Below are positions 31,546-35,003 of a DNA stretch of 64,000 bases, piece after piece. The translations under genes and the position numbers were made by a program. The stretch lies in contig NZ_JAROAV010000028.1 of NCBI RefSeq assembly GCF_029439465.1, positions 62,001 through 126,000 of the forward strand, written 5' to 3'. The notes under the pieces were generated by a model, which saw nothing but the letters and a program-made list of their open reading frames with translations, made no database searches and had not been told where the DNA came from. Each line of letters starts with the position of its first letter. Position 1 is the stretch's first letter. This DNA comes from Luteipulveratus flavus (GTDB taxonomy: Bacteria > Actinomycetota > Actinomycetes > Actinomycetales > Dermatophilaceae).

Positions 31546-32535
31546 GCCGTTCGCCTGGACCGTCTCCGCCAGATGGGCGACCGTCGAGCGCACCACGCGC
31601 TGGGACGGCAGTCCGGCGTCGGCCACCGTCGCGGCCGGCGTCGTGGGGGGCAGGCCGGCGTCCCGCAGCGCCTCGAGGATCGCCGGCAGCGTGGCGACGG
31701 CCATGAGCAGCACGAGGGTCGTCCCGGACCGCGCCAGAGCCCCGTAGTCGACGGTGCTCGCGGGATCGTCGGGTGCGACGTGCCCGGAAACGACAGAGAA
31801 CCCCTGCGACAGACCGCGATGCGTGAGCGGGATGCCACCCAGCGCAGGTCCGGCGATGGCCGAGGAGACGCCGGGGACGACCACGACCTCGACGCTCGCG
31901 GCCGCGCAGGCGATCGCCTCCTCACCGCCCCGGCCGAACACGTAACCGTCCCCGCCCTTGAGTCGGACGACGTGCTGACCGGAACGCGCCCGTTCGACGA
32001 GCAGCGCGTTGATCGCCTCCTGGGACGTGGACCGCCCGCGCGGGACCTTGGCGACGTCGACGACCTCGACGTCCAGGCCGGCGAGCGCAGAGACGGGAGC
32101 GAGGCGGTCGCAGACCACCACGTCGGCGGCGGCGAGCGCGTCGCGTCCAGCCACGGTGAGCAGCCCGGGGTCGCCTGGTCCACCGCCGACGAGCGTGACG
32201 CGGCCGGCTCCGTTCCGACGGCGCGGCGAAGCCGTCCGGCGGTGCACGAGCCAGACCCGCGCCGTCCGGCACGCTGCGTCGAGAGCGGGGTCCGATGTCG
32301 TCGCGACGACCAGGTCGGCCGTGTCGAGATCAGGGATGCCCCAGCCGGCTCCGGTCCAGATGAGGAGTCCGCGGCTCGCCAGGTCCTCGACCGTGGCCGG
32401 TACGGCGGGAGCCGCGATCGTGAGCCGGGCGCCGGCGGCGAGCAGGCCCGTGGCCTCACCGACCAGCGACGCGCCCTCGCCGACCAGCAGCACCCGCCGC
32501 CCCTCGACGTCCAGCTCTGCGGTGTACGTCGTCAC
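31456..32535 (-). CDS. cobA: uroporphyrinogen-III C-methyltransferase with N-terminal precorrin-2 dehydrogenase-like domain
   Basis: Makes precorrin-2 by two SAM methylations, the branch point to cobalamin and sirohaem. The C-terminal ~245 residues are a full SUMT: VTLVGGGPGDPGLLTVAG, VVDVAKVPRGRSTSQE, RLKGGDGYVFGRGGEE, VVPGVSSAIAGPAL and GIPLTHRGLSQGF. The N-terminal ~108 residues resemble the CysG NAD domain but are short and lack the NVVD-type segment and dimerisation region. GTG 32535 overlaps the cobB/C stop (GTGA) with AGGAGG seven bases upstream. Total 359 residues; last gene of the chlID riboswitch operon. Confidence 0.93.
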   Translation of the reverse strand: MTTYTAELDVEGRRVLLVGEGASLVGEATGLLAAGARLTIAAPAVPATVEDLASRGLLIWTGAGWGIPDLDTADLVVATTSDPALDAACRTARVWLVHRRTASPRRRNGAGRVTLVGGGPGDPGLLTVAGRDALAAADVVVCDRLAPVSALAGLDVEVVDVAKVPRGRSTSQEAINALLVERARSGQHVVRLKGGDGYVFGRGGEEAIACAAASVEVVVVPGVSSAIAGPALGGIPLTHRGLSQGFSVVSGHVAPDDPASTVDYGALARSGTTLVLLMAVATLPAILEALRDAGLPPTTPAATVADAGLPSQRVVRSTVAHLAETVQANGLGAPAITVVGEVAGLEPLGVRPQAHETPA

Positions 32536-35003
32536 GACGCGGCCTCCTGTCGTGGGAGGGCCCGGACGAGCGCCCGTCCGAGACGTCGGGACGTGGCGGG
32601 CTCGCGGACGGCGATGCGGACCCAGGTGTCGTCCAGACCCGGGAACGTGTCCCCTCGCCGCAGGGCAAACCCGTTGTCTCGCAGCTTTTCTCGTACGCCA
32701 GAACCAGGTCGGGCGAGGACGAACGGCGCCTGCGAACCGGGGACGAACGGGACGCCCGCGTCGGCGAGGACCTGCTCCAGGACCTGCCGGTGCTCGACCA
32801 CCAGCGCGGCCCGTCGTTCGCTCTCCTGGACGGCGGCGTCGGACGAGCACGCAACCAGCGCGGCCAGGGCCGGCGCGCTCACCGACCAGTGCGGCTGCTG
32901 CTCCGCGAAGGCCCTCACGAGCTCGGGCTCGGCGACGAGGTAGCCGGCTCGGATGCCGGGGATGGCCCAGGTCTTGGTGAGGCTGCGTACGACCACGAGT
33001 CCCGAGCGCTGCTCTGCTGCAACGCTTTCCGGCTCACCTGGCACCGCGTCGAGGAACGCCTCGTCCACGACGACCACCCGGCCGGGCCGGAGCAGGGCGT
33101 GCAGGTCAGCGCGCTCGTGCAGGCGGCCGGTCGGGTTGGTGGGGTTGCCGACCAGGACGAGGTCGGCGTCGGCGGGTACGAGCGCCGGGTCGAGCGCGAA
33201 CCCGTCGGCGGCGTGCAGGACGACGTGCTCGGGCCGGCGTCCTGCTGCCTGCAGTGCCCGGTCCGGCTCGCTGAACTGCGGGTGCACGACGACGGGGCGA
33301 CGCCAGGAGCGCGCGCGGGCGATCAGCGTGAACGCCTCGGCGGCACCGGCGGTCGGCAGCACCTGGTCGCCGGGCCGGCGGTGCCGTGCGGCGATCGCGT
33401 CGACCGCGCGGGCCGGGCTCGGGTACGCGCGCTCCGCCAGCGCGGCGTGGAGAGCCTCCTCGAGCCACGGCGGCCGGTCGGCGTGCTGCACGTTGACCGC
33501 GAGGTCGACCAGGCCCGGTCCGACCTCCTCGTCCCCGTGGTGCCACGCCGAGACCGCCGGTCGAGTGCGCGTGTCCTGCTGGTTCACCCGGTCCGGATCC
33601 AGCAGGACACGCGCACTCGGCGAGGCAGGGGAGGTCAGTGCGGCGGGTGCGGCGGCTGCGGCGACGAACTGCTCGGCCGTCGACGGGTGGCCGGCCCAGT
33701 GAGTGTGCAGGTACGACGCGTGCACGGTCGGGCGGCCGACGCCGGCCGGGTCGAGCGCGAAGCCCTCCGGCGAGCCGTCCAGCAGCCACGCGGGCTCGGC
33801 ACCCGCTCGCTCGCTCACCGTGGTCCGGTGGAACTCGTGGCCGACGACAACGCCCTCATCGCCGGACGTCCTCGCGTGCCGGTAGCCCAGGGTGAGGCGC
33901 GTCGTCATCCGCGCGGTCACGGGCACCGCTCCGACCATCGGCGTCCCGTCCAGGGACTCGCACAGGTAGAGCAGGCCGGCGCACTCGGCGACGACGGGAA
34001 CTCCCGCCGCGACCGCCGTACGGACCGCGCGCAGCATCGGCTCGTTCGCCGCGAGCTCGGCGGCGTGGGTCTCGGGGAAGCCACCGCCCAGATAGATGCC
34101 ACGAGTGCCGTCGGGCAGCGCGTCGTCGGTCAGCGGGTCGAACTCGACCACGCGAGCCCCTGCTGCGCGCAGCAGCTCGTCCGTCTCGGCGTACCGAAAG
34201 GTGAAGGCCCGGCCGGCGGCGACGGCGACGACCGGTGCACCGGCGACCGGTGCACCGGCGACCGGTGCGACCTGCGCCGAGGCGTCCCACGGCTCGGCAT
34301 CCAGGTCCGGCGCGGTCGCGGCGATGCGCAGCACGGCGTCGAGGTCGACGTGCTCGGCGACGCGGCCGGCGAGCCGGTCGATCGTGGCCGCGGCCGACGG
34401 TTGCTCGGCGACCGGGACCAGGCCGAGGTGCCGGCTGGGCGCGACCACCCCGGCGTCCCGAGGCAGGACGCCGATGAGGGGAAAGCCCCTGTCCGCCAGG
34501 GCATCTCGGATCTCCTGCGTGTGCCGCGGTGAACCCACCTTGTTGAGGATCACGCCGGCGACAGCGACACCCGGCTCGAACGTCGCCAGCCCGTGGACCA
34601 CCGCCGCCACGGAGCGAGCGGCGTGCGAGGCGTCGACCACGAGCACGACCGGCGCTCCGATCAGCCCGGCCACGTGCGCGGTCGAGGCGAACCCCCGTCG
34701 TCCGGTCGCGCCGTCGTACAGACCCATGACGCCCTCGACGACGGCGACGTCCGCGTCGCGAGCGCCGTTCAGCAGCAGCGGGACGATGCGCTCCTCCCCG
34801 ACCAGCTGGGGGTCGAGGTTGCGCCCTGGCCGGCCGGTCGCGAGCGCGTGGTAGCCGGGGTCGATGTAGTCCGGCCCGATCTTGTGGCCCGCGACGGCGA
34901 GCCCGCGGCCGCGCAGCGCGGCCATCAGACCGGTGGCGACGGTGGTCTTGCCGTGGCCGGACGCGGGCGCGGCCACGACGAGCCGAGGCAGCCGGATCAC
35001 CAC
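32532..35003 (-). CDS. cobB: cobyrinic acid a,c-diamide synthase fused to a CobC-like aminotransferase
   Basis: An 823-residue two-enzyme protein. Residues 1 to ~455 are CobB (ATP-dependent a,c-diamidation): P-loop PASGHGKTT, KIGPDYIDPGYH, EGVMGLYDG and the glutaminase cysteine in VVAECAGLLYL. Residues ~490-823 are a PLP fold-type I enzyme of the CobC/CobD group (threonine-phosphate decarboxylase or aminotransferase for the aminopropanol arm), with GNPTNPTGRLHE, VVVDEAF and Lys677 in RSLTKTWAIPG. The linker includes a perfect palindrome (33562-33619) and CobB contains a 15-bp tandem repeat. GTG 35003 overlaps cobO by 7 bp; GTG 35000 is also possible. Confidence 0.93.
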   Translation of the reverse strand: MVIRLPRLVVAAPASGHGKTTVATGLMAALRGRGLAVAGHKIGPDYIDPGYHALATGRPGRNLDPQLVGEERIVPLLLNGARDADVAVVEGVMGLYDGATGRRGFASTAHVAGLIGAPVVLVVDASHAARSVAAVVHGLATFEPGVAVAGVILNKVGSPRHTQEIRDALADRGFPLIGVLPRDAGVVAPSRHLGLVPVAEQPSAAATIDRLAGRVAEHVDLDAVLRIAATAPDLDAEPWDASAQVAPVAGAPVAGAPVVAVAAGRAFTFRYAETDELLRAAGARVVEFDPLTDDALPDGTRGIYLGGGFPETHAAELAANEPMLRAVRTAVAAGVPVVAECAGLLYLCESLDGTPMVGAVPVTARMTTRLTLGYRHARTSGDEGVVVGHEFHRTTVSERAGAEPAWLLDGSPEGFALDPAGVGRPTVHASYLHTHWAGHPSTAEQFVAAAAAPAALTSPASPSARVLLDPDRVNQQDTRTRPAVSAWHHGDEEVGPGLVDLAVNVQHADRPPWLEEALHAALAERAYPSPARAVDAIAARHRRPGDQVLPTAGAAEAFTLIARARSWRRPVVVHPQFSEPDRALQAAGRRPEHVVLHAADGFALDPALVPADADLVLVGNPTNPTGRLHERADLHALLRPGRVVVVDEAFLDAVPGEPESVAAEQRSGLVVVRSLTKTWAIPGIRAGYLVAEPELVRAFAEQQPHWSVSAPALAALVACSSDAAVQESERRAALVVEHRQVLEQVLADAGVPFVPGSQAPFVLARPGSGVREKLRDNGFALRRGDTFPGLDDTWVRIAVREPATSRRLGRALVRALPRQEAAS
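33562..33619. repeat. perfect 21-bp-arm palindrome at the CobB-CobC junction
   Basis: Positions 33562-33582 are exactly the reverse complement of 33599-33619 (arms start CGAGTGCG and end CGCACTCG) around a 16-nt loop. It is in frame in the fusion gene and encodes about residues 462-481 (SARVLLDP...QDTRTRP), between the two enzyme domains. A perfect 42-nt pairing inside coding sequence is far beyond chance and suggests an inserted palindromic element or a retained intergenic hairpin. Confidence 0.85.
34231..34268. repeat. 15-bp tandem repeat in the CobB domain
   Basis: Two and a half copies of the unit ACCGGTGCACCGGCG (34231-34245, 34246-34260, partial to 34268). They encode a repeated Val-Ala-Gly-Ala-Pro stretch (APVAGAPVAGAPV) in the linker between the ATPase and glutaminase halves of CobB. 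A candidate length-variable site. Confidence 0.85.

Follow-up and report, generated by a model that had tools for sequence, protein, structure and literature searches.

Why should a long, perfect palindrome lie inside a protein gene, between the domains of two enzymes? The question is raised by cobBC of Luteipulveratus flavus, which lies in the 64,000 nucleotides (nt) of DNA that we analysed (the window), a part of the 4.15-Mb genome called G000 here. The 823-residue reading frame scores 1187 bits against NF053748, the curated NCBIfam family of bifunctional CobBC proteins, and the palindrome falls between the part matching the CobB model (TIGR00379, residues 7-450) and the part matching the CobC model (NF005915, residues 487-812). 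A first-pass annotation of the window had described this palindrome at 33562-33619, and the description was borne out: the arms (33562-33582 and 33599-33619) are fully complementary, with 21 perfect pairs and a 16-nt loop, and on the minus strand they encode linker residues about 462-481, SARVLLDPDRVNQQDTRTRP. Extended to 24 nt, the arms form 23 of 24 pairs around a 10-nt loop. The predicted RNA fold of the region reaches -55.3 kcal/mol (z = -9.0), and none of 200 shuffled sequences did as well. We report below that the palindrome belongs to a dispersed family, members of which bracket the gene of a candidate partner, a chimeric AbiEi-DUF559 protein.

We searched the whole genome for the 21-nt arm, as the first-pass annotation had suggested. 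Up to three mismatches being allowed, there were 53 matches (25 on the plus and 28 on the minus strand) and only 1 for a reversed control pattern. Because of this excess, the linker palindrome is not a chance inverted repeat; it is one copy of a dispersed family of palindromes that resemble repetitive extragenic palindromes (REPs). Twenty-six aligned copies gave the consensus GGCCGAGTGCGCGTGTCCTGC, followed by some 20 nt and then by its complement. A covariance model (R1) gave 62 matches in G000, one per strand at 31 places; 26 of those places, with the window's linker copy among them, had supplied the sequences for the model. One more copy is split in its loop by an insertion element with the Pfam domains HTH_38 and rve (G000:C24:24234-25463; L093:1435-2664), which we take to be of the IS30 type, so that G000 holds at least 32 copies. 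We had considered the two arms of this copy, 1.2 kb apart, as the ends of an insertion sequence (IS), and rejected this as the element's own ends lie inside the palindrome loop. Some copies carry one or two extra arms. All genome searches used a fast first look, and copy numbers are lower bounds. A simple home-made, codon-based gene caller placed 28 of the 32 copies between genes and 4 within genes.

The 26-copy alignment changed on both sides in 7 of 20 pairs and was paired in 95% of its cells; column pair 22-52 was unpaired in 8 of 26 copies. These counts support conserved complementarity, which would fit an RNA and a DNA function alike. The family matched no known Rfam RNA at threshold: a search of 15 loci gave 18 matches with E <=1, none of which reached the curated threshold, the family gathering score.

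We searched 58 genomes, that of L. flavus included, with the covariance model. It matched four of them: G000, G001 of the same genus (15 places), G021 (23 matches, counting both strands) and G017 (once). The G001 copies, 15 in number, have their own arm version, CGAGTGCGCATGTCGYGC, apart from copy 1232109, which is nearer the type of G002. The latter, a further genome of the genus, has a more divergent arm, CGACAGTGCAAGCCGCG, with 44 matches including a few weak ones (versus 4 for a control pattern) and about 21 copies; this number counts element 777990, a single clear arm beside an IS30-type element. Both G001 and G002 have a copy in the cobBC linker, and the element is read there in the same frame in all three genomes, as SPSARVLLDPDRVNQQDTRTRP, SPSAHVVSVAGPADQRDMRTRP and SPTVHAASLPEAGKRRGLHDRP.

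By tblastx, seven of the 15 copies in G001 share their position with one in G000, as judged by matches on both sides; for an eighth, one side matches. G000:C31:14829 and G002:1543278 had been flagged as shared but, being about 1.6 kb apart in their neighbourhood, were not counted as one position. Arm identity within genomes averaged 0.92, 0.91 and 0.93 in G000, G001 and G002. Between G000 and G001, arms of nine same-neighbourhood pairs (seven true same-position pairs and two cross pairs of the bracketing copies described below) were 0.83 identical, versus 0.81 for all other pairs. Since copies in the same neighbourhood are hardly more alike than others, and copies within one genome are 0.91-0.93 alike, the family undergoes concerted evolution: positions are partly kept and sequences are homogenised within each genome.

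This homogenisation reaches into proteins. The four coding copies in G000 lie in cobBC, in the interdomain linker of a fused CydDC-like ABC protein, in the C-terminal tail of an aminotransferase resembling BioF, and in an IspD-like protein, where it occupies a loop; the names CydDC and BioF are presumptive, from Pfam domains. The first three of these sites are also occupied in G001. The CydDC element reads SARVLLRSHPERQQDTRTRP in G000 and SAHVVLVEAGPNQHDMRTRP in G001, and the linkers of CobBC and CydDC both contain SARVLL..QQDTRTRP in G000 and SAHVV..DMRTRP in G001. Two unrelated proteins thus show the same replacements from G000 to G001, R to H and T to M. They share these changes because the inserted repeat changes: here one can see a family of repeats directing the sequence of proteins. 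In G002 the translated fused CydDC lacks any such stretch, and no arm match of that genome falls in it. At L109:1029-2294 (G000:C31) the copy codes for a stretch within the IspD domain of an IspD-kinase-like fusion, apparently an extra loop.

Did the palindrome create the CobB-CobC fusion? The first-pass annotation had offered two histories, that a palindromic element inserted and fused the genes, or that an intergenic terminator became coding. The exact placement between two domains and the strength of the hairpin would suit either, and many G002 copies do lie close behind genes (16 of 21 within 15 nt of the stop of a called gene). We compared 60 full-length fused genes, namely the window's gene and 59 kept from 94 loci tried; loci were dropped when no single match spanned the query, and L138, the window's own gene, was dropped with its stop at the piece end. 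A strong inverted repeat (score >=16) is present in the linker of nine of them (the window, L139, L140, L009, L019, L043, L044, L048 and L078) and elsewhere in the gene in 3 of 60. Because the other 51 have no comparable linker palindrome, the palindrome did not create the fusion; such palindrome-free orthologues are what the first-pass annotation itself had named as evidence against its proposal. Separate cobB and cobC genes also exist in genomes of the same bacterial family; in one of these, G018, palindrome repeats lie inside cobB, away from any junction. A terminator origin fares no better, as none of 136 element flanks in three genomes has the run of at least 6 T in 12 nt taken to mark an intrinsic terminator, and the same family occupies intergenic sites and other genes. 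What stands is the insertion, the arm being a dispersed repeat; that the palindrome fused the two genes, or is a former terminator, is barely credible.

The gene has received such elements repeatedly and could keep a natural record of them. Two tandem arms stand in the cobBC linker of G017 and belong to a repeat found on both sides of a DUF559 gene there as well (L143, L230). In G018 the repeats interrupt cobB near residue 400 without breaking its frame (L156) and are also seen near a DUF559 gene of G018 (L257); the copies in L156 are both tandem and inverted, the same gene having been invaded elsewhere in another genus. Different long palindromes occur in the CobB-CobC linker of L009 (Aeromicrobium ginsengisoli), L019 (a metagenome-assembled genome (MAG) of Aeromicrobium sp.), L043 (Tessaracoccus caeni), L044 (a Propionibacteriaceae MAG) and L048 and L078 (two Nocardioides luteus strains).

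We wondered what might move or copy the repeat. In G000, G001 and G002, one gene common to all three is flanked left and right by family copies, which are about 1 kb from each other; no other two copies in G001 or G002 lie within 5 kb of each other. The gene encodes the AbiEi-DUF559 protein (Table 1). In G000 one of the copies precedes the predicted start by about 70 nt, and in G021 a relative of the protein is encoded 66 nt from the best-scoring palindrome. The neighbours of the G000 gene encode a GAF-domain protein and a LuxR-type response regulator, neither of them an AbiEii (DUF1814) toxin by Pfam or PADLOC.

To see how general this arrangement is, we collected 60 loci, taking one or several from each genome; they are those that matched best, to the G000 protein or to its profile, in a longer list of capped length. 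They represent 51 distinct genes, of which one was dropped for short flanks, leaving 50 in 30 genomes; match edges were taken as gene edges. Genes found with the CobBC query served as controls (28, after 2 of 30 loci were dropped for short flanks). A long palindrome was found within 450 nt on at least one side of 23 of the 50 genes and on both sides of 11, compared with 1 of 28 and 0 of 28 controls and with 3.9% and 0% of 20,000 random placements in 400 kb. The scoring control, L156, is the repeat insertion in G018 cobB and was kept as a control match. Nine of the 11 doubly flanked genes share at least 10 nt between their sides. When no palindrome was required, the two flanks shared at least 14 nt in 29 of 50 genes, versus 1 of 28 controls and 132 of 4,000 random placements.

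The bracketing repeats mostly differ from gene to gene, and the two that we searched for across genomes proved dispersed as well. The bracket repeat of G012 has 28 arm matches in G012 (control, 1) and none in G000-G002; that of a second G001 gene has 22 matches in G001, 7 in G002 and a single match in each of G000 and G021. This second gene (L244; G001:C2:3030468-3031292) has its own bracketing palindromes, with arms of 29-33 nt. In G036, a 20-kb piece chosen at random contained a palindrome of the type found on either side of a gene of that genome (L292, L232). Three DUF559 genes, L237 (G036), L271 (G009) and L231 (G014), are flanked by long inverted repeats of 25-36 nt, as in an insertion sequence, and no local palindrome was found at these three. 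Plasmids and phages were rejected as carriers: the gene had a match at E <=1e-5 in only 4 of 72,556 plasmid and 1 of 50,697 phage records, so it is nearly always absent from those collections. Also rejected as partner was a Y1 transposase (PF01797) of the RAYT type (REP-associated tyrosine transposase), which was found in none of G000, G001 and G002 and in 2 of 58 relatives.

The loops of the bracketing copies bear on how the family is kept uniform. Identity between the loops of the two bracketing copies was 0.95, 0.95 and 1.0 in G000, G001 and G002, the top value of all pairs in each genome, with one tie in G002; the means over pairs were 0.37, 0.55 and 0.76. Between G000 and G001, loop identity was only 0-0.64 at eight positions that the two genomes share or probably share. 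The comparison kept 29 of 32, 15 of 15 and 18 of 21 copies, insertion-split elements and those with unplaceable arms being left out. Because selection on a binding site alone would keep the arms alike and would not equalise loops, this likeness suggests copying.

The product of the gene common to the three genomes has about 295 residues, and its last third matches DUF559 (PF04480, E 5e-9). An AlphaFold2 model (mean predicted local distance difference test 88.7, predicted template modelling score 0.83) indicates two parts. Among the families on the Foldseek and VIA lists, residues 2-188 are predicted to resemble the AbiEi antitoxin 6y8q (Z 11.2, root mean square deviation 5.1, 174 aligned), and residues 193-294 the homing endonuclease I-Bth0305I, 3r3p (Z 11.3, root mean square deviation 2.4, 92 aligned), followed by Vsr (Z 9.0) and TnsA (Z 6.6). 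An AbiEi hidden Markov model matched the paralogue L244 at E 1e-10 and L221 at E 0.0055, with no match to L220 at E <=0.01. All 11 homologues that were aligned have E196, D229, E240, H246 and D255, which fits the EDxHD pattern.

Could the palindromes then be operators? In its own promoter AbiEi binds two inverted repeats of 23 bp with 3 bp between them; Rv2827c does the same with pairs of 23-bp repeats spaced by 13 bp (PMC7319586). The G001 palindrome beside the gene has 23-nt arms 12 nt apart, with one copy upstream of the gene, and by analogy the paired-repeat geometry of these proteins resembles the 23-24-nt arms and 10-12-nt gaps of the family here. Under such a reading about 30 sites would serve a regulator or nucleoid-type AbiEi-DUF559 protein, their sequences tracking its specificity by selection, without any mobility. 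It draws on the autorepression of AbiEi-type proteins through such paired repeats (PMC7319586), on the copy upstream of the G000 gene and on the seven to eight positions common to G000 and G001. Yet coding linkers, the C-terminal tail of a gene and an IspD loop would be poor places for operators, as would the G002 sites just behind stops; the loops of the bracketing sites are nearly identical, though arm sites need no loop match; and for 24 of the 32 G000 copies the G001 copies found include no counterpart. We therefore regard an operator family as unlikely.

Alternatively, the palindromes may be non-autonomous elements of another transposase, akin to miniature inverted-repeat transposable elements (MITEs), with the DUF559 gene a frequent passenger or landing place. 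Short dispersed inverted repeats with no gene of their own are typical of MITEs. IS30-type elements occur, besides the G000 loop, in the loops of two G002 copies and beside the single arm of a third (L212, L214, L211), and they are about 80-95% alike to the G000 element (tblastx). By eye, however, the G000 element has its own inverted ends and merely interrupts the palindrome; the lack of a Y1 transposase in the three Luteipulveratus genomes speaks against this origin too, as do the differing repeats that bracket DUF559 genes and recur in many genera. Despite the three further close pairs in G000 that enclose unrelated genes (Table 1), we find a MITE-like origin distinctly improbable, more so than operators.

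Taken together, these results make it probable, in our judgement, that the family forms a system like that of REPs and RAYTs, built on an unrelated nuclease-fold protein, with AbiEi-DUF559 as its most likely trans-acting partner. From the association with the gene and the predicted fold we infer DNA binding, cleavage and repair-driven copying, with this protein as the agent. The AbiEi-like N-terminal part would bind each arm of about 23 nt, as AbiEi-type proteins do at their own promoters, and the C-terminal Vsr/I-Bth0305I-fold domain would nick or cut at or near the palindrome. Repair would then copy sequence from another copy, homogenising the family and occasionally placing new copies elsewhere. 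One copy would have entered the linker of an already fused cobBC, most simply before the three congeneric genomes split; being in frame and in a flexible linker, it would have been tolerated, and its sequence would since have changed along with the family elsewhere in the genome. Bracketing, dispersal, kept positions and loop identity are together accounted for most simply by protein-driven gene conversion.

Several observations weigh against this proposal. Bracketing is not unique to the AbiEi-DUF559 gene in G000, as the three other close pairs show, and 21 of 50 homologous genes lack shared flanks of at least 14 nt, among them G001:C2:2012899 (L228), the product of which is 50% identical to the G000 protein. 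The 24 G000 copies with no counterpart among the G001 copies found count here as well, and a base-exact empty site was not obtained in the genomes compared. The spacers flanking the three cobBC copies differ by up to four residues and their codon positions are close, not identical, which leaves room for independent insertions into cobBC. Gene context is unlike between genomes: by the home-made caller, divergent sites number 0 in G002 and 8 of 32 in G000. As for the nuclease part, RAP-type mitoribosomal proteins score as high (Z 11.1), Foldseek alone gave no match at E <=0.001 (3r3p, E 0.18), and profile-sequence matches were weak (3r3p, E 0.35; the endonuclease-like 3hrl, E 0.0023).

A close known parallel to the proposed AbiEi-DUF559 system is the REP/REPIN system with its RAYT (TnpA-REP) protein. 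Shared features are short dispersed palindromes, a flanked gene for DNA processing and species-specific families, and RAYT genes can be flanked by REPs (PMC3733652). REP copies are also targets of IS elements (PMC1525189), which the IS30-type elements in palindrome loops parallel. The differences are as marked: the RAYT is a Y1/HUH transposase, whereas the candidate here is AbiEi-DUF559; neither of the REP end tags, GTAG or CGTC, is apparent by eye in the consensus; REPs usually exceed 100 copies (PMC2817692), against 15-32 here; and the host is an actinobacterium, a group that the main text of PMC3733652 does not mention under the name Actinobacteria. CGTC-tagged REPs, like the family here, are dispersed palindromes some of which lie within genes, but they are reported without a dedicated transposase (PMC3733652), unlike the family here with its bracketed candidate enzyme. 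Rickettsia palindromic elements also lie in frame in unrelated protein genes (PMC10969869); they are of ~150 bp, compared with about 58 nt here, where most copies are intergenic and a candidate partner protein is present. The AbiE type IV toxin-antitoxin system (AbiEi/Rv2827c) shares the predicted AbiEi fold and a paired inverted repeat of ~23 nt upstream of the gene (PMC7319586), and differs in that the protein here is fused to a nuclease fold, has no AbiEii neighbour in G000, and has repeats that lie downstream and are dispersed as well. The I-Bth0305I/Vsr type of homing endonuclease (EDxHD) has in common with it the predicted C-terminal fold and the invariant residues; no intron or intein host was seen here, no dedicated search having been made.

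In the literature searched, judged by titles and the openings of abstracts, nothing relevant was found that links palindromes or inverted repeats to DUF559 or to AbiEi-DUF559, nor a paper joining RAYTs with actinobacteria; among the papers that came up were ones on CRISPR/type VI secretion and on NAD metabolism. AbiEi-DUF559 is a candidate partner enzyme for palindromic repeats in a phylum for which the texts examined describe none, and DUF559, a Pfam domain of unknown function, gains a concrete, testable role and substrate. The widest form of the proposal we put forward tentatively, at somewhat less than an even chance: a widespread, undescribed intragenomic repeat drive in Actinobacteria, in which AbiEi-DUF559 nucleases, each bracketed by its own operator-like repeats, would cut or nick dispersed copies and repair would copy the repeat from site to site. 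If true, dozens of sites per genome would be homogenised and linkers of unrelated host proteins rewritten in parallel, by a REP-like system needing no HUH-type transposase.

Table 1. Coordinates of the linker palindrome, its host gene and related features. Plain numbers are window positions; G000 is the L. flavus genome.
Feature	Position	Strand	Remark
Palindromic repeat element, core	33562..33619	none	21-nt perfect arms, 16-nt loop; = G000:C21:95562-95619
Arm 1, extended, 24 nt	33562..33585	+	from complementarity of arms
Arm 2, extended, 24 nt	33596..33619	-	from complementarity of arms; complementary to arm 1 at 23/24
Stretch of 72 nt matching covariance model R1	33555..33626	-	E 3.5e-14; RNA hairpin, -55.3 kcal/mol
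cobBC	32532..35003	-	fused hydrogenobyrinate a,c-diamide synthase (CobB) and CobC-type aminotransferase, 823 aa
AbiEi-DUF559 chimeric protein gene	G000:C56:174847-175731		bracketed by two near-identical palindrome copies
Fused CydDC-type ABC transporter	L091:277-3714 (G000:C19); L171/L313 (G001)		element in interdomain linker
Close pair L098	G000:C32:22796/24741		AadA-type nucleotidyltransferase and helix-turn-helix (HTH) gene
Close pair L105	G000:C21:524758/526544		epimerase and TetR gene
Close pair L108	G000:C16:18218/19396		GH16-type enzyme

Besides the palindrome, cobBC contains a short tandem repeat in its CobB part, at window positions 34234-34268, which encodes APVAGAPVAGAP.

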